In this document: piece by piece, positions 1 through 19,727 of the stretch
Numbering within the stretch: the stretch's first letter is position 1
Layout: each line of letters opens with the position of its first letter
IMG/VR virus record: IMGVR_UViG_3300024255_000956
Coordinates: 1-23,414 of that record
Direction: 5' to 3' (one strand)
DNA length: 23,414 nucleotides
DNA from: a virus
Notes under the pieces: generated by a model
Database searches by the model: none
The model's input: only the letters and a program-made list of their open reading frames with translations
Told to the model about the DNA's origin: nothing
Translations under genes and position numbers: made by a program

Positions 1-375
1 AAATACTGTATTGACATCTTTACAGTTTCTCACATATATTATACCCGATATCCAACTGCCTTGATGGTTGTGAGGTACATTATAACCACCCTCATCCATT
101 ACATTTAACCACATTGTATCGATACGATATGCTGGTTTTTGTGGTGTGTAGAACTCACACACTTTGTCTATATAGGCATATAATTTATCTTGAATGTGCT
201 TGGGCCACTTGTCAGGCATACCAATAGTCTTTTGTTGACCATTTTGTAAAGACACTTTTCTTTGTTTTTCATTTAGATTCCAATCAGCAGTATCTTCGAA
301 CCAATCTAAATCTTCTTGAGTAAAGGCATTTTCTTCGAGGAAAAACCATTTAGGAAATACTGGAGTTGCTTTCAT
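1..375 (-). CDS. 2OG-Fe(II) oxygenase-like protein (N-terminal part, runs off window)
   Basis: The first 125 codons are present and the frame is open to the window edge, so the C-terminus is missing. The ATG at 375 follows the upstream stop by 18 bases. Residues 88-115 read MWLNVMDEGGYNVPHNHQGS and then a W-I-S-G-I-I-Y-V stretch. An H-x-H followed by a glycine/serine turn and an SGxxYV strand is the pattern of the phage-rich 2OG-Fe(II) oxygenase family PF13759/TIGR02466. H102 and/or H104 would supply metal ligands; the distal histidine and the 2-oxoglutarate-binding arginine lie outside the window. Such enzymes hydroxylate proteins or small molecules, and the substrate here is unknown. It is the most distal visible gene of a late-type operon that starts at the late promoter near 3915, so it may modify a virion protein. 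The family call is from motif recognition only. Confidence 0.72.
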   Translation of the reverse strand, partial: MKATPVFPKWFFLEENAFTQEDLDWFEDTADWNLNEKQRKVSLQNGQQKTIGMPDKWPKHIQDKLYAYIDKVCEFYTPQKPAYRIDTMWLNVMDEGGYNVPHNHQGSWISGIIYVRNCKDVNTVF

Positions 376-9281: not shown

Positions 9282-9450
9282 TGTTCCTCGTTTGGTCTTT
9301 ACTTGCATCTAGTTTCTCAAAAGTTTTATCATACCAAGCATTGCTACAGTATGCATCACAGAATACATTCATTTGATCCGGAGTGTGATACTTAATGTCC
9401 ATTACATTTAACAGTTTATCGCACTCTGCACATTTGAGGAATCTACTCAC
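9268..9450 (-). CDS. Small zinc-ribbon-like protein
   Basis: A 60-residue protein starting with GTG (GGAG nine bases upstream). It has C7-A-E-C10 and, after a 20-residue loop, C31-D-A-Y-C35, a four-cysteine arrangement likely to bind one zinc. The remaining C-terminal third is charged and probably disordered. It overlaps the 3' end of apt by eight bases and the following gene by 14 bases, so it is embedded in the same translationally coupled chain. The role is unknown; a DNA- or protein-binding adaptor is the simplest guess from the zinc motif and the neighbouring zinc-finger gene. Confidence 0.68.
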   Translation of the reverse strand: MSRFLKCAECDKLLNVMDIKYHTPDQMNVFCDAYCSNAWYDKTFEKLDASKDQTRNNGST

Positions 9451-9979
9451 CTTCGAACTCCGTCAATGTCCTAACATCATATCCTGATTGTTTTATTATA
9501 GCACTTCCTCCCAAATTGGGCAAGTCTATTACTGCTAAAATTAAAATATTCTTTTTAGGTATCTTGAAATTTTCGTGTATTAAATCTGCACAGGCAATTG
9601 CTGTACCTCCTGTAGCAATTAAATCATCTATAATAATCACATTGCCTTTGATAGGTGATATCTTTTGTATATGTAATTCAGATGTTCCATATTCCAGTTC
9701 GTATTCTTTTCTGTGTGTAGGATTAGGTAACTTACCTGGTTTCCTAGCAAGTATGAAAGGAATATTTTTACTTGATGCAATAGTTGAACCAAATATAAAT
9801 CCTCTGCTTTCAATTCCTACAATACAGTCAGCAACTGTTAAATTACAAATATCTTCAAACTCTTTATTGACTAAAGTAAATGCTTCAGGTGTTTCCAACA
9901 AACTTGTTATATCTCTAAACTGAACTCCTTCAATAGGAAAGTCTGAGACTGTTCTAATATATTTGTTTAACTTAGTCAT
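9443..9979 (-). CDS. apt: Adenine phosphoribosyltransferase
   Basis: This 178-residue protein is the typical full length of bacterial APRT. It carries the PRPP-binding loop I117-D-D-L-I-A-T-G-G-T126 and the adenine-site segment G55-I-E-S-R-G-F61, with F-R-D-I-T-S at 21-26 near the N-terminus as usual for this family. The enzyme converts adenine plus PRPP to AMP and pyrophosphate in the cytoplasm. It overlaps metK by eight bases upstream. That neighbour suggests recycling adenine freed when S-adenosylmethionine products are broken down, or adenine from degraded host nucleic acid, into the AMP/ATP pool for phage DNA. No truncation or missing active-site residue is visible. Confidence 0.95.
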   Translation of the reverse strand: MTKLNKYIRTVSDFPIEGVQFRDITSLLETPEAFTLVNKEFEDICNLTVADCIVGIESRGFIFGSTIASSKNIPFILARKPGKLPNPTHRKEYELEYGTSELHIQKISPIKGNVIIIDDLIATGGTAIACADLIHENFKIPKKNILILAVIDLPNLGGSAIIKQSGYDVRTLTEFEGE

Positions 9980-11069
9980 TAAAGATATCTACTTGTTCCC
10001 AAGGCATATCTTCTTTACCAAAGTGTCCATAGTTAGTAGTCTTAGTCAAGTCTAATTTAAACAAATCAAATTTTTCAATTATTCCTTTTGGTGTCAAATC
10101 TATGTTGTTCATAAAATAATCTGCAAACTCTTTTCTTACTTCGCCATCTGCATACACATATATACTAGTTGGTTCTTTTACACCAATAGCATAACTTAAT
10201 TGTACTGTGGCATTCTTTGCCTTGCCACTTGCTACAATATTCTTTGCTAAGTAACGTGCCATATAAGCCGCACTTCTGTCTACTTTGGTACAGTCTTTAC
10301 CACTAAATGCTCCGCCACCGTGTGGTGCATAACCACCGTAAGTATCAACAATAATTTTTCTGCCTGTTAATCCTGTGTCTCCATCTGGTCCACCAATTAC
10401 AAATCTGCCTGTTGGATTAATTAACCATTCAGTTTTTAATAGGTGTACTTTGTCTTTAACAACGGGCAGTATAATGTCCATTACACGTTCTCTAACGTCT
10501 TCTATGCTTACTTCTTCACTGTGCTGAGTACTACATACCACCGTCTTAATATCAATTGGTACACCCACGGCGTCGTAGTTAAATGTAACCTGTGCTTTGC
10601 TGTCAGGCCCTAACCAATCTGCTCCATTGCGTCTAGCATTTTCTAATGCCTTTAGTATTTCGTGACTGTAATAAATTGCACTTGGCATATAGTTGGGTGT
10701 CTCATCACAGGCATAACCAAACATTAAGCCTTGGTCACCAGCACCGAAGTCGTCGGTACCTAAAGCAATATCAGGCGATTGTCCGTGTAGTTCATTGTAA
10801 ACAGCCATCTTGGCCCAATGAAATCCATCTTGCTCATAGCCAATATCCTTAACAACGTTTCTCACAATATGTTCAATAACATCTTTATCAAACTTATCAC
10901 TTTTGTATTCACCTGCTAGTGTGACCATATTTGTAGTAACTAAAGTTTCTACTGCCGCCCTGTGAGTAATCTTACCGTCGATAAGATATGTTGCTACTGC
11001 ATCTGATATGTGGTCTGAAATTTTATCAGGGTGTCCACTACTAACACTTTCGCTTGTAAATTCGTACAT
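9972..11069 (-). CDS. metK: S-adenosylmethionine synthetase
   Basis: This 365-residue protein is slightly shorter than bacterial MetK (about 384) but complete across all three repeats. Key sites: the ATP-binding start S-S-G-H-P-D-K16, signature one G109-A-G-D-Q-G-L-M-F-G-Y-A, the phosphate-binding G227-G-P-D-G-D-T-G, and signature two G251-G-G-A-F-S-G-K-D. It makes S-adenosylmethionine from ATP and methionine. A phage copy could feed methylation of DNA, RNA or protein, or meet SAM demand in a nutrient-poor host. No phage methyltransferase is visible in this window. It is joined to mazG by a TAATG overlap and to apt by an eight-base overlap, so it is clearly in the uvsW-led operon and not an isolated insertion. 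Confidence 0.97.
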   Translation of the reverse strand: MYEFTSESVSSGHPDKISDHISDAVATYLIDGKITHRAAVETLVTTNMVTLAGEYKSDKFDKDVIEHIVRNVVKDIGYEQDGFHWAKMAVYNELHGQSPDIALGTDDFGAGDQGLMFGYACDETPNYMPSAIYYSHEILKALENARRNGADWLGPDSKAQVTFNYDAVGVPIDIKTVVCSTQHSEEVSIEDVRERVMDIILPVVKDKVHLLKTEWLINPTGRFVIGGPDGDTGLTGRKIIVDTYGGYAPHGGGAFSGKDCTKVDRSAAYMARYLAKNIVASGKAKNATVQLSYAIGVKEPTSIYVYADGEVRKEFADYFMNNIDLTPKGIIEKFDLFKLDLTKTTNYGHFGKEDMPWEQVDIFND

Positions 11070-11392
11070 TATAAATCTCCTTCTTTAACAAAGACTCCGT
11101 CAACCATTTTTCCTTTTCTGTCTTTGATGTCGTTATATGCTTGTTCCAAACAATCTTCGATACTGAGATTGTTTCGTTCAGCAATGTTAATTAATACTAC
11201 AATCATATCACCTATATCATCTGCTACATCATTGCCTTTACAGATATTATCACTAAGTTCGCCCATTTCTTGAATGAGTTTTGCTAGTTGATCCTTATCT
11301 GTTGCACCATCGATTAGATTCCTGTCGTGATGCCATTGTGTAATCTTTCTTATTAAGTGGTATGCTGTTGCCATACTGTGGTCGTCTGCCAT
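11069..11392 (-). CDS. MazG-like nucleotide pyrophosphohydrolase
   Basis: This 107-residue single-domain protein has the MazG-fold metal motif: E42-M-G-E45 on one helix and D58-D-I-G-D62 on the next (the E-x-x-E...D-x-x-D pattern). MazG-type enzymes hydrolyse nucleoside triphosphates to monophosphates plus pyrophosphate. Single-domain versions are common in marine T4-like phages, where roles in nucleotide recycling from host DNA or in ppGpp modulation have been proposed. Here the gene sits between the kinase-nucleotidyltransferase fusion and metK, with TAATG overlaps on both sides. A second methionine at residue 7 is an alternative start, but the overlap favours the one given. Confidence 0.88.
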   Translation of the reverse strand: MADDHSMATAYHLIRKITQWHHDRNLIDGATDKDQLAKLIQEMGELSDNICKGNDVADDIGDMIVVLINIAERNNLSIEDCLEQAYNDIKDRKGKMVDGVFVKEGDL

Positions 11393-12168
11393 TATAGTTT
11401 TCCCTCTTTTCGCATTTGTTCGCGTATTTTAGTTGCACTTATATCGTGTGTTGCATCGTCAAAAACTTCTTGTTCTATTTTGTATCCTACATCACGTCCA
11501 TAAGTTATGTTTAAAAGGTTAGGTACAACCTCTATTTTTACTTTACCAGCGAAGTTACATAAACTTTGTTGTAAGTTTTCTATAACTTGATATGCTGGAA
11601 AAGGATTCTTTTCATCTGTTGGCATATCCCTTACCATTAAAAACACTTGATTGTGTTTAGCCAGTGCTCTATCAAATAGTGCTTGGTGTCCAGGATGCCA
11701 AGGTTGAAATCTTCCAAGCATTTGTGTAGTGGGTGCCTGGTTGTCCCAAATAAATCTTTGTCCAATTTCGTAAGCAATTATTTTAGCATCTACATCACCA
11801 CGTTGTTCTTGTACATTGTAGTCTGTGGCATAAGGTCTTTCAAATACTTTATTAGTGTCTTCAAACCTGCCTTCTTTTATTGTGTCTACAAATATCTCAT
11901 AATCTGCATCAAATTCTATTCTTGCATTTCTAAAAGGACATACAAAGTCTGCTATTGCTATTTTGCCCTTTGCTTCTGCTTCAGCACATAAGTCTACCAT
12001 TCTTTGCTTTTGTCTTAATCTGCCTTCTTCGGAGAAGTCCCAATCGTCTGCTTCTTCTCTAACTTTATCTGCATTGAACCAGGCAACATTGTCACCTAGG
12101 TATTCAACTAGTCGTTCTGCCAAATATGTTTTACCACTCCCTGGTAATCCAAATATTAGTACTCTCAT
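11392..12168 (-). CDS. Bifunctional P-loop kinase / HxGH nucleotidyltransferase fusion
   Basis: This 258-residue protein joins two enzymes. Residues 1-140 resemble APS kinase: Walker A G7-L-P-G-S-G-K-T14, F-N-A-D-K-V-R at 31-37 in the position of the D-x-V-R substrate motif, I-A-D-F at 72-75, and a C-P-F-R-N-A-R segment. Residues 148-258 are an adenylyl/cytidylyltransferase: G152-R-F-Q-P-W-H158-P-G-H161, N-P-F-P-A-Y at 188-193, and I243-S-A-T-K-I-R249. The N-P-F and I-S-A-T-x-I-R blocks look most like NadM/NadR-type NMN adenylyltransferases. Plausible roles are NAD salvage (a NadR equivalent with the domains in reverse order) or, less likely, a PAPS-synthetase-like activity. It overlaps the stand-alone kinase by ATGA and mazG by TAATG. 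The substrate is not decidable from the sequence. Confidence 0.82.
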   Translation of the reverse strand: MRVLIFGLPGSGKTYLAERLVEYLGDNVAWFNADKVREEADDWDFSEEGRLRQKQRMVDLCAEAEAKGKIAIADFVCPFRNARIEFDADYEIFVDTIKEGRFEDTNKVFERPYATDYNVQEQRGDVDAKIIAYEIGQRFIWDNQAPTTQMLGRFQPWHPGHQALFDRALAKHNQVFLMVRDMPTDEKNPFPAYQVIENLQQSLCNFAGKVKIEVVPNLLNITYGRDVGYKIEQEVFDDATHDISATKIREQMRKEGKL

Positions 12169-12608
12169 CTATTCTCCATTAGTTTATCTACAATTATTCG
12201 GGCATCGATGTCGTCTCTTTGTTCTGTTACTGCATAGTCAACTGATATTGGTTCTTCATATCTAGCCGCTAACCTAGTATATTTGCCATCTCTTAATTTG
12301 GCATTGCCATTTTTAATGGTGTCTAGATAAATTTCAAAGTCAAAATTCATTAACTCCCTGTCTTTTCTTTTAGCAAAAATTCCATCTACAATAACAATCT
12401 TTCCTTCTAATACTGATTCTTCTGCAAGTTGTTGTATTTTATTAGGTACTAACAACTCGCCTTGTGAATCATACAATTTTAAAAACCCAGTCTCTTTTCT
12501 TATACTATCTATATTTAAATGGACTGCTTGGTCTCCTAACAACTCTGCTAATATTTCTGCTAGGTATGTTTTACCACTTCCTGGTAATCCATAAATTAAT
12601 ATTTTCAC
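12165..12608 (-). CDS. Stand-alone P-loop kinase, paralogue of the fusion's kinase domain
   Basis: I chose the GTG at 12608 (147 residues, MKILIYGLPGSGKT). It overlaps the preceding stop as GTGA and aligns with the N-terminus of the downstream fusion. A TTG at 12629 would overlap more. It has Walker A G-L-P-G-S-G-K-T at 7-14, an N-I-D-S-I-R segment near 32-37 and V-I-V-D-G near 72-76, all like APS kinases. Blocks shared with the neighbour include the Walker region and V-D-Y-A-V-T-E-Q-R-D-D-I-D-A-R-I-I near the C-terminus (the fusion has T-D-Y-N-V-Q-E-Q-R-G-D-V-D-A-K-I-I). This indicates a tandem duplication in which one copy carries an extra transferase domain. Substrate unknown. Confidence 0.8.
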   Translation of the reverse strand: MKILIYGLPGSGKTYLAEILAELLGDQAVHLNIDSIRKETGFLKLYDSQGELLVPNKIQQLAEESVLEGKIVIVDGIFAKRKDRELMNFDFEIYLDTIKNGNAKLRDGKYTRLAARYEEPISVDYAVTEQRDDIDARIIVDKLMENR

Positions 12609-13360
12609 TGGGTAGTTTCTTCTCTCCAATCTTCTATGATGCCATCTTCTTCTAACTGTTCAAACGTTTGAGCATTCACATCGTGCCACTTGTTATTTAA
12701 GTAACCTACAGTAGCATAGTAACCTTTTCCGGTTGTGTCGTTCCAATCGTATTCTAATTCAACTTCTTTGCCGTCATACCATACACTTTCTATAAAAGAA
12801 CCCATATCAGTTTCAACTTGTTGGGTCGCTAACAACCTAGCATCAAAAGGTTCATCTAACTCTAATTTAAAATCAAAAAACTGTCCTTTCTCTCCACTAT
12901 GAAATGCTAACACAGGACTATAGTTTTCAGGATCTTCTACATCGCTGATATCTTCTGTCATATAACATTCCCTGCTACTGTAACAATAAACATCGTCAAA
13001 ATCTATTTCTTCTGCATTATCGTAATCTTCTTCGCCATCTTCATTTATAGGATAAACACTTAGACCTGCATCTGCATAAGGTCCGTTGATGTGTTCTTTA
13101 TCTTCATAATTAAACCAAGCACCAGGCTCAAACTCATCTGGGTCTTCTGTGGGTAAAGGCATTGCCTCTGGATCTTCTATCTCTTCAACTGTGCTAGGAT
13201 CGATATCGTAGTCTGTTAGAAAATCAATTAAGTCTCCATCTCCATCTTCATCCACAATAGGTTTCCAATAATCTACAAAGGCTTTGGATACTGTGCCAAC
13301 AACACACTCTCCGCCATATCTTCCACTTACTAAATGATAATTATATTTTTTATCTGCCAT
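12605..13360 (-). CDS. Highly acidic protein of unknown function
   Basis: This 251-residue protein is dominated by Asp and Glu, especially residues 36-80 (D-E-D-G-D-G-D-L-I-D-F-L, then E-E-I-E-D-P-E) and 105-140. The N- and C-terminal parts look folded, with aromatic beta strands such as Y-H-L-V-S-G-R-Y-G-G-E-C-V-V and W-Y-D-G-K-E-V-E-L-E-Y-D-W. No catalytic motif or signal peptide is visible. The start has a strong ribosome-binding site (AGGAG, seven bases upstream) lying over the stop of the preceding gene. The charge would suit a DNA mimic or a metal- or protein-binding role, but this is only inferred from composition. It is followed by a GTGA overlap with the kinase gene. Confidence 0.75.
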   Translation of the reverse strand: MADKKYNYHLVSGRYGGECVVGTVSKAFVDYWKPIVDEDGDGDLIDFLTDYDIDPSTVEEIEDPEAMPLPTEDPDEFEPGAWFNYEDKEHINGPYADAGLSVYPINEDGEEDYDNAEEIDFDDVYCYSSRECYMTEDISDVEDPENYSPVLAFHSGEKGQFFDFKLELDEPFDARLLATQQVETDMGSFIESVWYDGKEVELEYDWNDTTGKGYYATVGYLNNKWHDVNAQTFEQLEEDGIIEDWREETTQ

Positions 13361-13369
13361 TTTATTCTC

Positions 13370-13873
13370 CTAAAATAAATCACTGATGTCTAACACATCA
13401 TTAATCTTGTTAATATCTTTGCAAAATAATGCACACCTAGGAGTGTTTCCATTCTGTAGGGGCACCGTAATCATATGTCCGTGTTTTAACTTTGGAAAAA
13501 ACCATTTTACATCTTGATAAATGTTAACCACGTCCACTTGCATCACCGTTGGTGACTTATTCTCTAAAGGATTAAATACAGGTGTATGAAATCCTCTATT
13601 GTTTAAACTTGTTAAAGGTAGCATCTCAATTTCATTATACATATCATCATCGCAGATTGCTATGCTCCAATCAATTGGCATTTGAACTGTTCTGTCTCCT
13701 ATTTTTAAAACCATTGCAGGAGAGTAAAAACTTTCTAAAAATATTAGTTGATGAAAATAGAAGTCCATCCATTCAGGATCTCCTGCGTCCATTATACAAT
13801 ATCTCAAATCCACATCTGAATCTGGCACGTTATCTAAATTATATGTTCTGTTTTCCACAGTCAATATGTTCAT
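13370..13873 (-). CDS. Conserved-looking phage protein of unknown function, coupled to uvsW
   Basis: This 167-residue soluble protein is rich in Met, Trp and acidic residues, with an apparent beta-rich fold (T-V-E-N-R-T-Y-N-L at the start; H-M-I-T-V-P-L-Q-N-G at about 133-142). I see no catalytic motif, zinc cluster or membrane segment. Its ATG overlaps the uvsW stop (ATGA), so it is co-translated with the helicase and may be an accessory factor of UvsW or of recombination. That role is an inference from position only. It ends nine bases before the next start codon, and its stop codon lies within that gene's Shine-Dalgarno sequence. Confidence 0.78.
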   Translation of the reverse strand: MNILTVENRTYNLDNVPDSDVDLRYCIMDAGDPEWMDFYFHQLIFLESFYSPAMVLKIGDRTVQMPIDWSIAICDDDMYNEIEMLPLTSLNNRGFHTPVFNPLENKSPTVMQVDVVNIYQDVKWFFPKLKHGHMITVPLQNGNTPRCALFCKDINKINDVLDISDLF

Positions 13874-15330
13874 AAGTACTCCACTTTGGTAACTTTGAAT
13901 GGATAGTTTGCTTCTTTGTAAAACTTTTTACGTTCTGTAAGATGCCTTTTACTATATTTCAAAGTACTTGTAATATCAAAAACTTGCAAATAGTCTTTGT
14001 CTTGTGCTTTACGAATACCTCTACCGATACTTTGTATAACACGAACAAAACTTTTGCCAGGTTCTAATAAGATTAAATTAAAAATTCTAGGTATATTAAT
14101 ACCTGTTGATGCAACACCATATGTTGCCACTATCACTTTGTTATCCATTTTGCTGACTTCTTTGTATTCTGTTTTTCTATCAGCACTTTTCATCTCGCCA
14201 CTCACAAATACCCAATCAGGATTTTGTTCGATAAGCAGTTGCCCAGTTTTAATCCTGTCAACTAATATAAGTGTGTTGCCAGAACCAGATAAGTTTCTAA
14301 CCATATCAGATAAAAAGTTTATCCTCTCCGGAGATGTCACTAACCATTTTAGTTCTTGTGCATAATTACTAAAGCCTACGTGGGTATCTATTAATTGTAA
14401 TACACTTATATCCAAGTTAGCAAGTACTCCTTGCTCTTGTAAATCACTAGCACTGAGTTGATTAATAACACTACCTAATGTGCTAACAACTCCTGCAAAT
14501 TCATATTCTTCTTTAGGTATAGTTCCTGTTAGTCCCCAACGAATAGGAACATTAGCAAACACTCCACCTAATAAGTTTCTTAATACATCTGCTTTTGCTT
14601 TGTGTACTTCATCGACCATTACACATACGACATCTTTCATAAACTCGTCTACTGGAATTGGTGCTTCATCATTCTTTGTTTTCTTTTCTAGTATTGCTAA
14701 ACTTTGCCAAGTACATATAGTGTGAGTCTTGTCATATTCTTTTCTATCGCCATATAACACTCCTACATCTAACCCTAAGTTTTTGTAATCTTCTTCTGTT
14801 TGCGTTACTAAGTCTTTGTTAGGCACAATAACGATAGTTCTACCATATGCTTCACACTTATGACTTAATACTGCCGTTATAAGAGTTTTACCTGCTCCGG
14901 TGGCTACTTCTTGTAAGCCTTGCAAATTGTTTAAGAAACAATTTATAATTTCTACTTGGTAATCCCTTAAAATAACAGGCAGTCCTTCTGCAGTATGCCC
15001 TTTGGGCCAAGCAATATTATCATAGTCTGTATCTACTACAGGTGTAAATTCAAATTTGTATGGGTGTCTGTGGTCTTCTACTTCTATATTGTATCCTTCT
15101 TTCTCCACAATAGGTAAAAGTTTATCTAGTAAGTTAAGATAACTTCTGCCACCTATGTCGCAGAATCTCACACACCCGTCCCATCTTCCTAGTTTATATG
15201 CTGGCATATGATAAGCATAAGGTAAGAAAAACTTTAGTGCATCAGAAATCTTTCGACGTGTATGCACATCAAGGTCAGTGAATCTAACATTGACCTCGTC
15301 TTTAATTACTAATTTCGTTGTTCTTGCCAT
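13870..15330 (-). CDS. uvsW: UvsW-type SF2 recombination helicase
   Basis: This 486-residue protein is near the length of T4 UvsW (about 500). An N-terminal UvsW-type domain (about 1-95) precedes the two helicase domains. Motifs: Q-motif-like L-R-D-Y-Q at 121-125, Walker A A143-T-G-A-G-K-T149, D240-E-V-H as the DExH box, L267-T-G-T270 as motif III, and Q-S-I-G-R-G-I-R as motif VI. UvsW unwinds D-loops, R-loops and stalled forks, helping the switch from origin-dependent to recombination-dependent replication, and acts with UvsX, UvsY and gp32 encoded nearby. It has its own promoter with the predicted start two bases before the ATG and no Shine-Dalgarno sequence, and it heads the long operon that includes metK and apt. 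Confidence 0.95.
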   Translation of the reverse strand: MARTTKLVIKDEVNVRFTDLDVHTRRKISDALKFFLPYAYHMPAYKLGRWDGCVRFCDIGGRSYLNLLDKLLPIVEKEGYNIEVEDHRHPYKFEFTPVVDTDYDNIAWPKGHTAEGLPVILRDYQVEIINCFLNNLQGLQEVATGAGKTLITAVLSHKCEAYGRTIVIVPNKDLVTQTEEDYKNLGLDVGVLYGDRKEYDKTHTICTWQSLAILEKKTKNDEAPIPVDEFMKDVVCVMVDEVHKAKADVLRNLLGGVFANVPIRWGLTGTIPKEEYEFAGVVSTLGSVINQLSASDLQEQGVLANLDISVLQLIDTHVGFSNYAQELKWLVTSPERINFLSDMVRNLSGSGNTLILVDRIKTGQLLIEQNPDWVFVSGEMKSADRKTEYKEVSKMDNKVIVATYGVASTGINIPRIFNLILLEPGKSFVRVIQSIGRGIRKAQDKDYLQVFDITSTLKYSKRHLTERKKFYKEANYPFKVTKVEYL

Positions 15331-15404: not shown

Positions 15405-15445
15405 TGGTCCTCTAGGAGGTTCAGTATGCGAGGACCAAACATACT
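15405..15445 (-). repeat. Overlapping inverted repeats at the 3' end of the ATPase gene
   Basis: Two perfect inverted repeats interlock here. TGGTCCTC (15405-15412) pairs with GAGGACCA (15430-15437), and AGTATG (15423-15428) pairs with CATACT (15440-15445), which includes the ATPase stop codon. A shorter CCTC/GAGG helix (15409-15419) competes with the first. The RNA could adopt alternative folds just ahead of the terminator hairpin. The function is unknown. Confidence 0.6.
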
Positions 15446-16475
15446 AAGCCATTCTCTTCATACAGGTTGTTTCAGCCAATGCCTTCCAACCCTCAGGCTT
15501 CATTTTCTTGAGGTCAGCAATCTTGAGTACCATTCTCAAACTAACTTCTCTAAGTCTTGCACTCTTCTCTACCATAAAGTCTACAACTTCTTGGTTACCT
15601 TCGCCTTCAAATTTGTATTCATCAAGCATACCATCTCTAACAATTTGTTTGATTCTTAGGAACTTGTCTGAGACTTTGTTCATTTCCAAATCAATGTAGT
15701 GACATCTTGACATAAGTGCTTCTAAGTGATCCTTAATCTTCTTAGAACGAACGTTTTCAAAATCAACGTTAGTAATAAAGATTGCTGATCCTTCAAAGTC
15801 AAACCTATCTGGAATACCTTCCCTTCTCAATGCGTGGGATTCTGACTTCCAACTTACAGTTCTTTTCTTGCCTGAGTCTAAAACTGCCTTTAACATATTT
15901 AGGCAAACTTCATCAAACAATACTGTATCACAGTCATCAAATATAATAACATCTCCTTTAGCAGAGTTGTTAAACAATGTTTGGTACAAACCAATTGGAG
16001 TCATTGAACCTTTACAGAATTCTGTTTTTGGTCCTTTGCCTTTCAGTTTGTTAAACATATCGTATTTGTCCATTTCAGTTTCAACACCAAAACTCTTACC
16101 AACACCTGGAGGGCCACTTAATATAAGTCCTCTCACAGTACCTTTGATAACTGCTCTAGTCATCTCCGTTAGTATATCGAATCTTGTTTTGATTCTGTCT
16201 AGTGCCTGTTCATCAGTTTCTTGCAGTTCTGCAGGAGTGCTTTTTTGCACTATTGCCTGTGCTTCAAACTCGTGTTCTGAAACTTTTTCAAAAGACGTAA
16301 TGTCGCTGACAATAATTCTTGCACTTGGATACTTAGGTCCTAGTACTTTACTAGCATCAACTGTTAGAAACATTCCTTTCTTTCCAAAAGTAATGTCTTT
16401 GATTAATGGGAAAATGGCGTTCTTTATTGTGTTACCACGATATTTGCCAGATTTAATTTTAACGTAAGTTTGCAT
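15444..16475 (-). CDS. AAA+ ATPase of unknown function
   Basis: This 343-residue protein is a single AAA+ module. Walker A is G121-P-P-G-V-G-K-S128, Walker B V-I-I-F-D-D-C-D at 176-183, sensor 1 I-T-N at 234-236, and an arginine-finger candidate is R257 in A-L-M-S-R-C-H-Y. A beta-rich N-domain (about 1-75) precedes it, and a small helical lid fills the C-terminus. The arrangement suits an oligomeric remodelling or loading ATPase. It is not the T4 gp44 clamp loader as far as I can tell, because the Zn/SRC features and context differ, although S-R-C is present. Expression appears independent: it has its own promoter with an internal inverted repeat, a strong AGGAGG ribosome-binding site four bases before the ATG, and a dedicated terminator. 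A role in replication or DNA transactions is inferred from position. Confidence 0.85.
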   Translation of the reverse strand: MQTYVKIKSGKYRGNTIKNAIFPLIKDITFGKKGMFLTVDASKVLGPKYPSARIIVSDITSFEKVSEHEFEAQAIVQKSTPAELQETDEQALDRIKTRFDILTEMTRAVIKGTVRGLILSGPPGVGKSFGVETEMDKYDMFNKLKGKGPKTEFCKGSMTPIGLYQTLFNNSAKGDVIIFDDCDTVLFDEVCLNMLKAVLDSGKKRTVSWKSESHALRREGIPDRFDFEGSAIFITNVDFENVRSKKIKDHLEALMSRCHYIDLEMNKVSDKFLRIKQIVRDGMLDEYKFEGEGNQEVVDFMVEKSARLREVSLRMVLKIADLKKMKPEGWKALAETTCMKRMA

Positions 16476-16886: not shown

Positions 16887-17090
16887 TTATTTTGAATGAG
16901 GAGGTAGTTTCGCTTCAACAAACCACTCGTGCTTTCTTTTTGCAGGGTTATACTTTTTAAGTCGTAACTTTCTGTTTTCTACTGTGAGTGTTCTTGTTTT
17001 GACAGCCGTGTAATGATATGTATGGTGATCTCTAGTCTCACCTTCTGGTATCATATAAACTAACGTTCTTCTTTTATCTTTCTTTGCCAT
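16887..17090 (-). CDS. rpmG: Ribosomal protein bL33 homologue
   Basis: This 67-residue basic protein starts M-A-K-K, like many bL33 proteins. Its second half, K-L-R-L-K-K-Y-N-P-A-K-R-K-H-E-W-F-V-E-A-K (about 42-62), matches the bL33 signature K-L-x-L-K-K-[FY]-D-P-x-x-R-x-H-x-x-[FY]-x-E-x-K of proteobacterial ribosomes. The Y-H-Y-T-A-V-K-T-R-T segment corresponds to the family's F-Y-T-T-x-K-N-x-R. It lacks the zinc cysteines, as do E. coli-type bL33 proteins. Compared with the usual 55 residues it has about eight extra residues in the N-terminal loop (P-E-G-E-T-R-D-H-H) and four at the end (P-P-H-S-K). It could join the host large subunit near the E site. Ribosomal proteins are known in phages (mainly bS21 and bL12), bL33 more rarely. 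Confidence 0.75.
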   Translation of the reverse strand: MAKKDKRRTLVYMIPEGETRDHHTYHYTAVKTRTLTVENRKLRLKKYNPAKRKHEWFVEAKLPPHSK

Positions 17091-17100
17091 AGTTACTTAT

Positions 17101-18840
17101 TTACCAATTATATTGCAAAGTAATTAATACTTCCCTACCACGGTTATCATACCCTGGTAGAACCTCTACAACGTCGTCTAAAGCATTGTTTACTTTAAAT
17201 GTTAAGTTGTACTTACCCCAAGTCTTAGATGCACTTAAATCTAATCTATTTAAATCTTCTAAGTAATCTTCTCCTTCTGGTATTATGTCATACTGCCCTG
17301 GTGCTCTTTCTAAGTTTACTGCATACCTGCCTGCAACTGTAACACCATTGAACATTTGCTTGTATGTGATTGCTCCCATATACTTGGGCACTCTAGGTTG
17401 CTCTGTATCAGTATATGCTAACATTACACCAAACGGACCATAGTTATTAGCAAATCTAAAACCTTGTGTGGAGTATTCTCCGCCATTTTCATACGTGGCA
17501 TTTGTAAAAATATCTTCTGTTACAGCAGGAGTTACAGTAACTTCTCCTGTGTCAGGATCTGTTGTGGTTACTTCTGGCGTAACTATTATTGTTGTGGTAT
17601 AACTTGGTTGGTACTCAATTGTTTCTTCGAAATCATATTTGAATACACTTATTGCGCCAAACCCAATCTCATACCCTACGCCTTCTTCTGGCATTAAATC
17701 TTCATTACCATCAACCCAAGCATCACCAAACCTTTCATACAAGTTTGCTTTTCTAAAACTGTTTCCAATGTTAAAGAAGAACTCGCCTTTTGATAAACCA
17801 AATCTCATTGCATTTTGGTCATCGTTGCCAAATCTCAAACCAAAGTTGTAGTTTAAGGCGAACGAGGCATTAACATTTAAGTATCCTCCAAAGTTTTCAT
17901 CTTCGTATTTGTTTTCAGTAGCACCCATAGAGTTTATACTTTCTGTATTGTAAATGTTTCTTTCACCATCTACACCAAATGCAACATTTAGTTTATTGGA
18001 AAGATCCAAATTATTACCAAATCTCACAAAGTCTCTATAACTTTCATTTGCATAAGTAGGATCTTCTACTGTAAAATATTCAGCACTGGTATAGTTTCTG
18101 CCTACTGTGATATAATCATTTCTAATTGCTACGTTATATCTTTCACCTAATTCTGTACATTCGTTGCTTTGACCCCAATTGTAATCATAACAGTTATCAT
18201 AATCATATTCATAATCAACAAATTTAGCAATTACTTCAAAGTCCATTGCATCTATAATAATTTTTGCTGACTGTTGTTCATAAGTATCTTCTTCATCATT
18301 ATCATTTCTTGCACTAGCAATAGTATCTTTGAATGATGCTACTTCTAAATTGTTTGATGATAGTTTTATAAATTGATTTTCTATTCCACTGTCTACAATA
18401 TTTCTCATTGTCAATCCTCTAGTGATTGTGTCTTCAATAAGAACTGTTCCAGCCATTGCTCCAGAGCCATACATAACTCCGTTAGCACCACTAATAACTT
18501 TAATTTTTTCTCCTGATGCAATATCGTGTCCAAAATTATACCAAGAGCCGCCTGGTTCATTAGCAGGGATACCATTTCTAAATACTGCGGTATGAACTGT
18601 TTGAGCACCTCTTTCATTATAAAATGCTGAGCCGCCATACCCTCCAGCATTGTATGTGAATGCTGGCAAAATCGCTGTCAATATATTAGTATCAGTAGCA
18701 GGGTTTGTTTCAACTGTTCTTTCTTGTTGACCCACTACTACAACTTCTTCAATATCTGAAGCGAAAGCGAATGCTACCCATAATGGTAAGGTAACAATAA
18801 TCGTAAATTTTATTATATGTTTGTGAAAAAAATCTTCCAT
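17101..18840 (-). CDS. TonB-dependent outer-membrane receptor (phage-encoded)
   Basis: This 579-residue protein starts at the ATG at 18840, which has AGGA eight bases upstream and lies one base after the preceding stop; an upstream in-frame start lacks these. It has a Sec signal peptide (M-E-D-F-F-H-K-H, hydrophobic core to about residue 25, A-F-A cleavage near 27), then a TonB box (I-E-E-V-V-V-V-G at 30-37). A plug domain follows (about 38-150, including G-A-N-G-V-M-Y-G-S-G-A-M-A-G-T-V-L-I). The beta-barrel has the family block F-R-K-A-N-L-Y-E-R-F-G-D...G-N-E-D-L-M-P-E-E and a C-terminal G-R-E-V-L-I-T-L-Q-Y-N-W ending in an aromatic, the BAM signal. Size and C-terminus resemble BtuB-type receptors (about 600). 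It looks intact. A Thr-rich barrel loop (T-T-T-I-I-V-T-P-E-V-T-T-T-D-P-D) is likely surface-exposed. The ligand is unknown. Confidence 0.9.
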   Translation of the reverse strand: MEDFFHKHIIKFTIIVTLPLWVAFAFASDIEEVVVVGQQERTVETNPATDTNILTAILPAFTYNAGGYGGSAFYNERGAQTVHTAVFRNGIPANEPGGSWYNFGHDIASGEKIKVISGANGVMYGSGAMAGTVLIEDTITRGLTMRNIVDSGIENQFIKLSSNNLEVASFKDTIASARNDNDEEDTYEQQSAKIIIDAMDFEVIAKFVDYEYDYDNCYDYNWGQSNECTELGERYNVAIRNDYITVGRNYTSAEYFTVEDPTYANESYRDFVRFGNNLDLSNKLNVAFGVDGERNIYNTESINSMGATENKYEDENFGGYLNVNASFALNYNFGLRFGNDDQNAMRFGLSKGEFFFNIGNSFRKANLYERFGDAWVDGNEDLMPEEGVGYEIGFGAISVFKYDFEETIEYQPSYTTTIIVTPEVTTTDPDTGEVTVTPAVTEDIFTNATYENGGEYSTQGFRFANNYGPFGVMLAYTDTEQPRVPKYMGAITYKQMFNGVTVAGRYAVNLERAPGQYDIIPEGEDYLEDLNRLDLSASKTWGKYNLTFKVNNALDDVVEVLPGYDNRGREVLITLQYNW

Positions 18841-18841
18841 T

Positions 18842-19273
18842 TTAATTCCTATTTTTAATAGATAATATAGTGTTGGATGCTGGTAAAAAGTCTTTAAACA
18901 ATTTATCAACATTCAACACCCGTTTTTTATTATTGTAAGACATCCATATCCACTTATCTAATTCATCTGTTGTTGAAAGCACCAAGCAATTTTCTAAGAG
19001 TGCTTTGTTAAACAGTTTTTCTAAATATGTATTTGCTACTAACAATAAATTATATTCTTTTGCAGAGTTAATAATATCTATTGCGTGGTCTTCGTTATCA
19101 TACTTAATAATTTTTAAATTCAAATCAATTTGGTCTAGAGTGAAATCTATATCGTTTGGTAAAATTAAAACGTCCTTGTAATCAACATAGCCTTTTGTTT
19201 CTTCAAAAGTTTTTGCTAAATCAATTCCGTATTCGATTGCTTGTTGCAAATCTTGTACTTCAATATTAACCAA
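18842..19273 (-). CDS. Protein of unknown function between uvsY and the TonB receptor
   Basis: A 143-residue soluble protein starting with TTG (GGAAG about nine bases upstream), overlapping the uvsY stop by eight bases. It has alternating helix/strand character with repeated hydrophobic strands (D-V-L-I-L-P-N-D-I, N-L-L-L-V-A-N-T-Y, N-C-L-V-L-S-T-T), resembling a small alpha/beta Rossmann-like or glycosyltransferase-like fold, but no catalytic motif can be named. Its stop is one base before the receptor's ATG, so the two are probably co-translated. There is no signal peptide, so it should remain cytoplasmic. Confidence 0.72.
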   Translation of the reverse strand: MVNIEVQDLQQAIEYGIDLAKTFEETKGYVDYKDVLILPNDIDFTLDQIDLNLKIIKYDNEDHAIDIINSAKEYNLLLVANTYLEKLFNKALLENCLVLSTTDELDKWIWMSYNNKKRVLNVDKLFKDFLPASNTILSIKNRN

Positions 19274-19727
19274 CTGATATATCTTCCATTCCTGCTGTTC
19301 TTAACCTTACAATGTGACCAATTTGCCATTGCTTGGTATCTAAACCTTTCATTATGCCTAAGTATTTGTTTCTTAAAAGACTTATTTGGTTTACTAAACT
19401 TGTTAGTTGTACCACTTCATCTTCACCGTCAACAAACTTATCTGCATCTCTACTTGTTAATTGTCTATTATAATTTTCAAGGAACTTTCGGAAGACCTTA
19501 CTTCTGGTCTTCCTAAGTTCAATGTTAAGGTGTTCGAGAATTGCTTCTATTTCCTGTAACTGGTTGAATCTGTGTTCAGTAATACCTGGTAGTGCCGCAG
19601 ATAATCTTTCGACATTACCTTTTACTCCACATTCAAACTTGGCTTCTGCTAGTTCTTTCTCATAGTAATCAATACAGTTTACTATTTCTGCTAAACTATC
19701 ATTTACCTTGTTATACCAACCTGCCAT
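19266..19727 (-). CDS. uvsY: UvsY recombination mediator
   Basis: This 153-residue protein is slightly longer than T4 UvsY (137). The recognisable block is R-K-F-L-E-N-Y-N-R-Q-L-T-S-R-D-A-D-K at about 80-97, followed by the acidic V-D-G-E-D-E-V, then L-R-N-K-Y-L-G-I-M-K-G-L-D and Q-W-Q-I-G-H-I-V-R-L-R near the C-terminus, as in UvsY of marine T4-like phages. UvsY binds single-stranded DNA, displaces gp32 and loads UvsX recombinase. It lies downstream of gp32 and uvsX in one transcription unit, which matches its partners. Helical coiled-coil character dominates residues 10-75, consistent with oligomer formation. Confidence 0.92.
   Translation of the reverse strand: MAGWYNKVNDSLAEIVNCIDYYEKELAEAKFECGVKGNVERLSAALPGITEHRFNQLQEIEAILEHLNIELRKTRSKVFRKFLENYNRQLTSRDADKFVDGEDEVVQLTSLVNQISLLRNKYLGIMKGLDTKQWQIGHIVRLRTAGMEDISVG

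Follow-up and report, generated by a model that had tools for sequence, protein, structure and literature searches.

Why would a bacteriophage carry the gene of a protein destined for the outer membrane of bacteria, when the phage metabolic genes usually discussed encode cytoplasmic enzymes? This question is raised by a virus record of 23,414 bp (IMG/VR record IMGVR_UViG_3300024255_000956, positions 1 to 23,414; the whole of this stretch is hereafter called the window), in which a gene on the minus strand, at 17101-18840, encodes a TonB-dependent receptor within a T4-type replication block. The initial annotation had described the gene as intact and had listed as possible roles the replacement or masking of the host receptor, the uptake of nutrients such as cobalamin or iron during infection, and a decoy displayed on lysis debris. 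Here we show that the gene belongs to a recurrent viral family, and that its product is BtuB-like, a well-supported assignment that draws on sequence comparison and on a predicted model. The reading that we favor, and to which we give about an even chance of being right, is that of a viral BtuB-type importer of corrinoids (vitamin B12) working during infection, whose ligand, expression, export, timing and benefit we infer.

The open reading frame (ORF) is unbroken, and the architecture announced by the initial annotation was recovered, the signal peptide as a putative element:

17101-18840 (-): TonB-dependent receptor gene, BtuB-like, 579 aa (ORF, Pfam, model, fold and profile comparison)
18760-18840 (-): putative N-terminal export signal, residues 1-27 (by eye from the sequence; helix 2-17 in the model)
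18730-18753 (-): TonB box IEEVVVVG, residues 30-37 (mean conservation 0.84 in an alignment of 104)
18424-18729 (-): plug domain, residues 38-139 (PF07715 and model)
17104-18417 (-): beta-barrel, residues 142-579, 22 strands counted from the DSSP string (model)

The Pfam Plug family (PF07715) matches residues 42-132 (E 1.1e-9, 39.2 bits for a cut-off of 23.9), the hydrophobic N-terminus ends, by eye, in AFA, and the C-terminus reads ...TLQYNW, the final residue being the aromatic W579. An in-frame ATG at 18912 would give a receptor of 603 aa; the start of the 579-aa form was chosen because the first methionine of the frame in two close relatives (loci L003 and L005) matches the residue at 18840. 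Regarding the N-termini of the family as a whole, two main kinds of presequence, MEEFFHKHIIK... and M..DKNFHINFSPLY..., are each fused to varied receptors. These two patterns were absent from every other viral ORF searched, and a third, looser pattern matched many viral ORFs.

Relatives of the receptor recur in viral contigs. A sequence query recovered 25 viral-contig loci, and four profile queries, whose sets overlap and from each of which 80 were retained, gave 178, 170, 217 and 151 confirmed stretches out of 232, 182, 346 and 208 candidates, respectively. From the viral loci, 141 distinct receptors with a length of 480 aa or more were extracted (134 complete at the C-terminus, with an intact 3′ end, and 7 running off the end of the locus), represented at 97% identity by 107 sequences. 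Alignment A5, on which most of what follows is built, holds 104 viral sequences, i.e., these 107 minus three contig-end fragments (L060, L085 and L327), with the window sequence replacing L026. The gene is present in contigs of 339,794, 250,519 and 216,820 bp. Furthermore, when contigs were sampled independently of the receptor, with uvsW as anchor, the receptor was found upstream of uvsW in 48 of the 80 best contigs; another 28 have uvsY but lack the receptor at this place, and 4 are not long enough to judge. The phage context is supported. The initial annotation had proposed to look for the gene between uvsY and bL33 in other assemblies; it recurs in the uvsY-uvsW interval, the window-type arrangement, in which genes for an L33-like protein, a small protein and an AAA protein separate receptor and uvsW, being restricted to 3 of these 48. 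In a second lineage (e.g., L012, L053 and L062) the receptor adjoins a nucleosidase gene and genes that look baseplate-like. The 339,794-bp contig has its receptor at uvsW and, in addition, a region homologous to the baseplate-side site, with one receptor match in all. This arrangement implies that the gene moved or was regained within one broad virus group.

The receptor is under purifying selection: its ratio of nonsynonymous to synonymous substitution rates (dN/dS) is 0.084-0.099 against L003, L004 and L005, that of uvsX being 0.087-0.088, and against four more distant relatives, with 52-58% identity in the receptor and 72-73% in uvsW, dN/dS is 0.17-0.31. Taken together, an intact ORF, an interval that recurs in many contigs and a low dN/dS indicate that the gene results neither from chance nor from an assembly join, and its viral, recurrent status is secure.

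The structure prediction proposed in the initial annotation gave the plug and the 22-strand barrel that had been foreseen. AlphaFold2 on alignment A5 produced a confident model (predicted local distance difference test, pLDDT, 87.8; predicted template-modelling score, pTM, 0.85), while a run with 10 sequences only, at pLDDT 39.8, was discarded. By our own count the barrel has 22 strands, and the model superposes on solved receptors across residues 28-579, so that the predicted plug-barrel fold can be considered secure. In the structural comparison with VIA-align, B12 transporters occupy every one of the first 15 of 50 rows (Z 35.6 to 30.9), headed by E. coli BtuB (2gsk; Z 35.6, 2.3 Å, 496 residues aligned) and including the Bacteroides thetaiotaomicron BtuBs (Z 30.9-32.9); the first other receptor, the haem receptor ChuA, appears in row 16 with Z 29.4. 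Families missing from this list were not counted as evidence against them. The 104-sequence profile searched against the PDB matched BtuB with 71.8 bits (E 4.3e-19), followed by PhuR with 18.2 bits, and hhalign aligned it over 493 columns to E. coli BtuB plus 14 SAR86 BtuB-type proteins (probability 99.9, E 2.7e-31), and to E. coli BtuB alone with 98.9% and E 1.1e-17. Among 13 family members scanned with NCBIfam, the best model was the BtuB model TIGR01779 in 10, TIGR01786 in 2 (the window, weakly, and L012, by a narrow margin) and none in the fragment L006, every score lying far under the BtuB cut-off. BtuB is the nearest known receptor in the profile comparison and in one of the two comparisons of fold.

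A comparison with cellular receptors indicates that the phage genes stand apart. At E <= 1e-5, the profile of 10 sequences (A1) matched in 4 of 12 genomes, in 7 of 151 SAR86-order genomes and in 38 of 398 genomes of Pseudomonadota. The strongest cellular match had 45.9 bits and fell mostly on the plug, while 20 of 20 viral records scored 546-1074 bits; when genome contigs were scanned with A1, none of the 275 pattern matches was confirmed as a relative. Six of the seven SAR86-order matches are BtuB-type receptors or cluster with them (two being the same genes as in the BtuB-model scan described below); the seventh, L262, is not. In the tree that had been suggested, a fully supported branch, drawn as 1.84 and 0.58 on either side of the midpoint root, separates 43 viral rows from 42 cellular ones, the BtuB-type rows falling into two clusters amid other receptors; six of the 48 cellular loci (L520, L528 and L533-L536) gave no row. 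Because the cellular rows were picked by similarity, mostly with the phage profile, and because of the many long branches and unequal residue composition, the tree shows separation and not source. A recent capture of a host gene is not supported, given the virus-only clade and the lack of a close cellular relative in the genomes searched.

Within A5, the TonB box and loops L2/L3 are better conserved than the barrel strands. Mean conservation is 0.84 in the TonB box, 0.73 in the plug, 0.58 in the strands and 0.51 in the periplasmic turns. For the surface loops, assigned by hand from strand order with approximate borders and with L5 unscored, it is 0.29 in L1, 0.76 in L2, 0.75 in L3, 0.42 in L4, 0.66 in L6, 0.71 in L7, 0.39 in L8, 0.79 in L9, 0.58 in L10 and 0.67 in L11; hence 7 of the 10 scored loops equal or exceed the strands, and L1, L4 and L8 fall below them. 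Two loops deserve mention:

18289-18318 (-): predicted extracellular loop L2, residues 175-184 (N181 and E183 invariant in 104/104, as is D185, the next residue)
18160-18198 (-): predicted extracellular loop L3, residues 215-227 (D215, C217 and, just after the loop, C228 invariant in 104/104)

We take the calcium-binding aspartates of BtuB to be D179, D193, D195, D230 and D241, and all five positions are indeed Asp in the E. coli sequence. In the profile alignment, D193 and D195 fall on E183 and D185, each invariant in the 104 sequences, while BtuB D224 aligns with D213 of the window; in the window sequence itself, 4 of the 5 calcium positions are acidic (E183, D185, D219 and E230). BtuB holds two calcium ions in a five-aspartate cage close to where B12 binds, its loops L2-L5 being considered key to high-affinity binding (PMC7360065). 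The aligned positions would thus fit a calcium-assisted corrinoid site in part, without constituting a proof.

In turn, some of these phages could have a use for the imported compound. The B12-binding domain PF02310 is found in the three largest (340, 217 and 251 kb) of 25 viral records, two of which share the same receptor, the match in the 251-kb contig being under the Pfam cut-off. Moreover, two distinct phage proteins, 35% identical to each other, have as best match KedN5 (4.8e-67 and 9e-44, under the KedN5 cut-off), a family of methylcobalamin-dependent radical-SAM (S-adenosylmethionine) methyltransferases:

L539:58-1908 (-): KedN5-like B12-binding radical-SAM protein, jumbo phage contig (NAD, nicotinamide adenine dinucleotide, synthetase gene alongside)
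L540:3162-5231 (-): KedN5-like B12-binding radical-SAM protein, jumbo phage contig

A viral scan found the radical-SAM gene in 10 contigs, including the 340- and 217-kb ones; L544, L545 and L550 share its neighbors, which in five others are not in the stretch examined or the contig is short. Against cultured phages, the protein has one match, at 25.5%. Furthermore, MetK, a nucleosidase and Apt fit a SAM cycle, metK being not specific to the receptor since it is also present in contigs without receptor at uvsW.

From these elements a working sequence of events can be proposed. The receptor would be a working BtuB-type TonB-dependent transporter, of a virus-only family kept by a T4-like jumbo phage group. 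During infection it would be exported and then inserted in the outer membrane of the host, where a pocket that loops L2 and L3 help to form may receive cobalamin or a related corrinoid, transport being energized by the TonB-ExbB-ExbD machine of the host. The imported corrinoid could feed phage metabolism, e.g., the B12-binding radical-SAM methyltransferase-like protein, and might also serve the SAM cycle of the phage MetK, nucleosidase and Apt.

Several observations weigh against a BtuB-type importer and have to be set beside those in its favor. In the other fold comparison, Foldseek, the first match is the siderophore receptor PirA (3.3e-19) and BtuB the second (2.1e-18), with FepA, PfeA and OprC close behind, and in VIA-align itself a sixteenth BtuB entry, a cross-linking model, appears only in row 30. 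Profile A1 gave no match among PDB chains at E 0.01. The sole NCBIfam match of the window protein is TIGR01786 at 2.3e-4, with no BtuB family model, neither TIGR01779 nor NF007926 among the equivalogs, matching it, and the best-scoring relative reaches 62.1 bits for a BtuB cut-off of 599.7; because scores stay below the equivalog cut-offs, we name the receptor BtuB-like and not BtuB. Other cellular receptors score near BtuB with the phage profile (67 vs 72 bits). Only 2 of the 5 calcium aspartates meet family-conserved acids, in loop alignments that are soft: D179 aligns with Ser176, D230 with D219, a position that is Thr in 61/104 and Asp in 24/104, and D241 with E230, a position that is Gln in 97/104. 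As for the use of B12, PF02310 is limited to those 3 of 25 records, with one match below the cut-off and two lineages represented; the window and six loci contain no match to any Rfam family, and thus no cobalamin riboswitch; and the ribonucleotide reductase looks like class I, with an NrdA-like protein of 761 aa beside an NrdB-like one of 364 aa (by eye, in L491 only).

These points lend themselves to a different explanation, namely that the protein is a true transporter of another ligand, be it a siderophore, haem or some other nutrient, its BtuB look being due to small size and shared ancestry. We hold this to be a real possibility, though one that falls clearly short of an even chance. The Foldseek ranking, the 67 bits of other receptors (most of these rows were picked with the phage profile), the equivalog cut-offs and the calcium positions all favor it. 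In the opposite direction, 15 of the 16 B12-transporter rows outrank all other receptors in VIA-align, and they include B. thetaiotaomicron BtuBs as long as ChuA; BtuB leads by more than 50 bits in the PDB profile search; and the B12-binding radical-SAM gene is found in the three largest contigs.

Phages are known to use TonB-dependent receptors as their own receptors on the host, and the phage protein might serve in the control of superinfection, replacing or masking that of the host so that adsorption is blocked, or acting as a decoy on lysis debris. Its faster evolution relative to replication neighbors such as uvsW, and the variability of L1, L4 and L8, would be in line with this idea. However, masking or a decoy predicts fast-evolving surface loops, and the conservation of most loops speaks against both; the TonB box, which transport requires and masking does not, is conserved; and the receptor is far from all host receptors found, which would make it a poor mimic. 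We therefore regard these roles as improbable, and of the roles listed in the initial annotation it is cobalamin-type uptake that the BtuB profile and VIA-align results, the TonB box, loops L2/L3 and the B12 radical-SAM gene favor.

A virion component, e.g., a tail-tip or membrane-derived protein aiding adsorption, appears very improbable. It would agree with the position beside baseplate-like genes (by look) in one lineage, as in L012, and with a report in which the TonB-dependent receptor of a phage is interpreted as indicating adsorption (PMC10504331), but the protein combines a signal-like N-terminus with a TonB box, and 48 of the 80 uvsW-anchored contigs have its gene within the replication block, the baseplate-side site being confined to that lineage. 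Finally, an assembly chimera or a stray host gene, an idea to which a normally cellular family and the lack of a close match in cultured phage records might lead, is refuted by the recurrence of these flanks in numerous contigs of many different metagenomes, by contigs of 217 to 340 kb with the gene, by a viral clade of its own and by purifying selection, and its probability is negligible.

If the importer works on behalf of the phage, the identity of the host becomes relevant, and here metK gives a clue. In a contig scan from which the best 80 of 596 matches were retained, the metK of the SAR86 genome AG-893-L08 was 69-70% identical to that of the window, the value for the rest of the SAR86 order being 42-56% (56 genomes matched among the 60 others searched). 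In the metK tree it nests inside a phage clade of 60 rows, with nested-branch supports of 84-96 (L166, a Marinimicrobia metagenome-assembled genome with 64% by tblastn, is absent from this tree). Such nesting suggests a transfer from a phage of this kind to SAR86, hence contact with this host, and gene exchange is thereby hinting at SAR86-type gammaproteobacteria as hosts. The gene, at 2995-4080 of L165 (AG-893-L08), looks chromosomal, with neighbors read by eye as pgk, transketolase, ahcY and xerC; it is possible, judging from these sequences, that the core SAR86 metK was replaced by the phage copy. SAR86 is described as relying on TonB transporters (PMC6931264), and information on its B12 is scarce, one subclade genome encoding B12 synthesis and another not (PMC9296465). 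SAR86 phages have been predicted, and as of 2017 no SAR86 virus had been isolated (PMC5332604).

Within the SAR86 order, 16 of 101 genomes have a receptor with at least 225 bits to the BtuB model, none above the curated cut-off, and 13 of 101 have a MetH activation domain, 12 of these 13 being among the 16; in AG-893-L08 neither was found. These absences are soft, because genome completeness is not stated. They nevertheless allow a tentative, rather doubtful extension of the corrinoid-importer reading, in which SAR86 jumbo phages would bring their own importer to feed a cobalamin-dependent radical-SAM methyltransferase and a SAM cycle, most hosts showing neither a BtuB-type receptor nor MetH. 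If true, a cell that makes no use of B12 would be led by infection to import it.

The surroundings of the gene in the window are as follows:

19266-19727 (-): uvsY-like recombination mediator (PHROG 231)
18842-19273 (-): small protein of 143 aa, function unknown, its stop abutting the receptor start
16887-17090 (-): bL33-like ribosomal protein (just under Pfam and NCBIfam cut-offs; weak label)
15444-16475 (-): AAA-type ATPase, PHROG 1250, within the same uvsY-uvsW interval (PHROG and family matches)
13870-15330 (-): uvsW-like helicase, downstream border of the interval (sequence comparison)
9972-11069 (-): metK, S-adenosylmethionine synthetase (TIGR01034, 442.5 bits for a cut-off of 309.4; tree)
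9443-9979 (-): apt, adenine phosphoribosyltransferase (NF002636, above cut-off)

The receptor had been placed between uvsY and a ribosomal protein gene. Both neighbors are there, with the qualification that the small gene stands between the upstream UvsY-family gene and the receptor and that the L33 label is weak. The 143-aa protein is 79-86% identical to those of three relatives whose uvsY is 99% identical. The block also holds UvsX and MazG, and the labels gp32, gp41, gp61, gp46, gp47, gp55, gp25 and gp6 were given by sequence look and gene order alone. In receptor-less contigs (L091, L094-L097, L113, L118 and L126), the uvsY-uvsW interval often houses another cassette, formed by an ORF of about 312-336 aa and one of about 357-369 aa, functions unknown. 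Elsewhere in the window, two P-loop kinase-like proteins are encoded at 11392-12168 and 12165-12629 (-), the C-terminal part of the first being weakly similar to nicotinamide mononucleotide adenylyltransferases; the pair may perhaps take part in NAD salvage, matching the NAD synthetase of L539. At the window edge, 1-375 (-) encodes a truncated 2-oxoglutarate-Fe(II) oxygenase domain (PF13759). PADLOC returned no matches for the 4 proteins scanned.

What would such a gene mean? A recurrent, virus-only outer-membrane transporter would imply, if confirmed, that phages remodel what infected cells take up. The imported nutrient could perhaps be B12, a vitamin that many prokaryotes must obtain from others (PMC9296465), and the finding would tie a large uncultured jumbo-phage group to SAR86. 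Among cultured phages, the sequence searches found no carrier of the receptor in a collection of 50,697 records: the window receptor gave a single weak match (E 0.05), and a divergent relative 9 weak matches, the best at 22% to records named Acinetobacter phage with an annotated btuB. Two such records, CAKLQH020000002 and CAKLQF020000003, have btuB or fitA annotations on long contigs and look like bacterial DNA filed as phage. No BtuB-like phage receptor was described in the titles and abstract openings of the open PMC literature searched.

The comparison with known systems helps to delimit the case. For UvsX, the closest cultured counterpart belongs to Sinorhizobium phage Phosso (64%); for uvsW, the closest cultured genes come from Pseudomonas jumbo phages, among them Paride and PA5oct (58-59%), of the Arenbergviridae/Wroclawvirus group, which resembles our phages in the order of single-stranded DNA-binding protein, UvsX and helicase, relatedness being judged by UvsX and uvsW matches and by gene order in one phage only. 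In contrast, a 465-bp hypothetical gene stands directly before the helicase of Paride, with no receptor between, and such records gave no tblastn match to the receptor. Pelagiphage Skadi-1 has a gene with the same annotation, TonB-dependent receptor, read as pointing to adsorption and located between tail tube and capsid genes (PMC10504331), a comparison made by annotation only. Closer in concept is the marine megaphage Mar_Mega_1, for whose receptor carbohydrate uptake during infection has been proposed (PMC9723777); it is likewise a phage-carried TonB-dependent receptor, but of the SusC type and not of the BtuB type. Of the two BFVD matches under E 0.001, A0A8D9FQQ5 bears a similar SusC-type name (805 aa, 10% identity), and A0A0R6PI85 is weak, partial and nameless.

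Among cellular proteins, E. coli BtuB (TIGR01779; PDB 2gsk, 1nqg, 1nqh) shares with the phage receptor the plug, the barrel and the TonB box, the extensive superposition and near full-length profile alignment described above, and the two acidic calcium-ligand positions of L2. It differs in that the phage receptor is about 18% identical, under the equivalog cut-off and in a virus-only clade, in that its other three calcium positions are not conserved in the phage family, and in that this family has the invariant Cys217/Cys228 pair in L3, with cobalamin as a ligand that we only infer. The next fold neighbors of the phage receptor are the BtuB-type transporters of B. thetaiotaomicron (8blw, 8bmx, 8p97 and 8p98).

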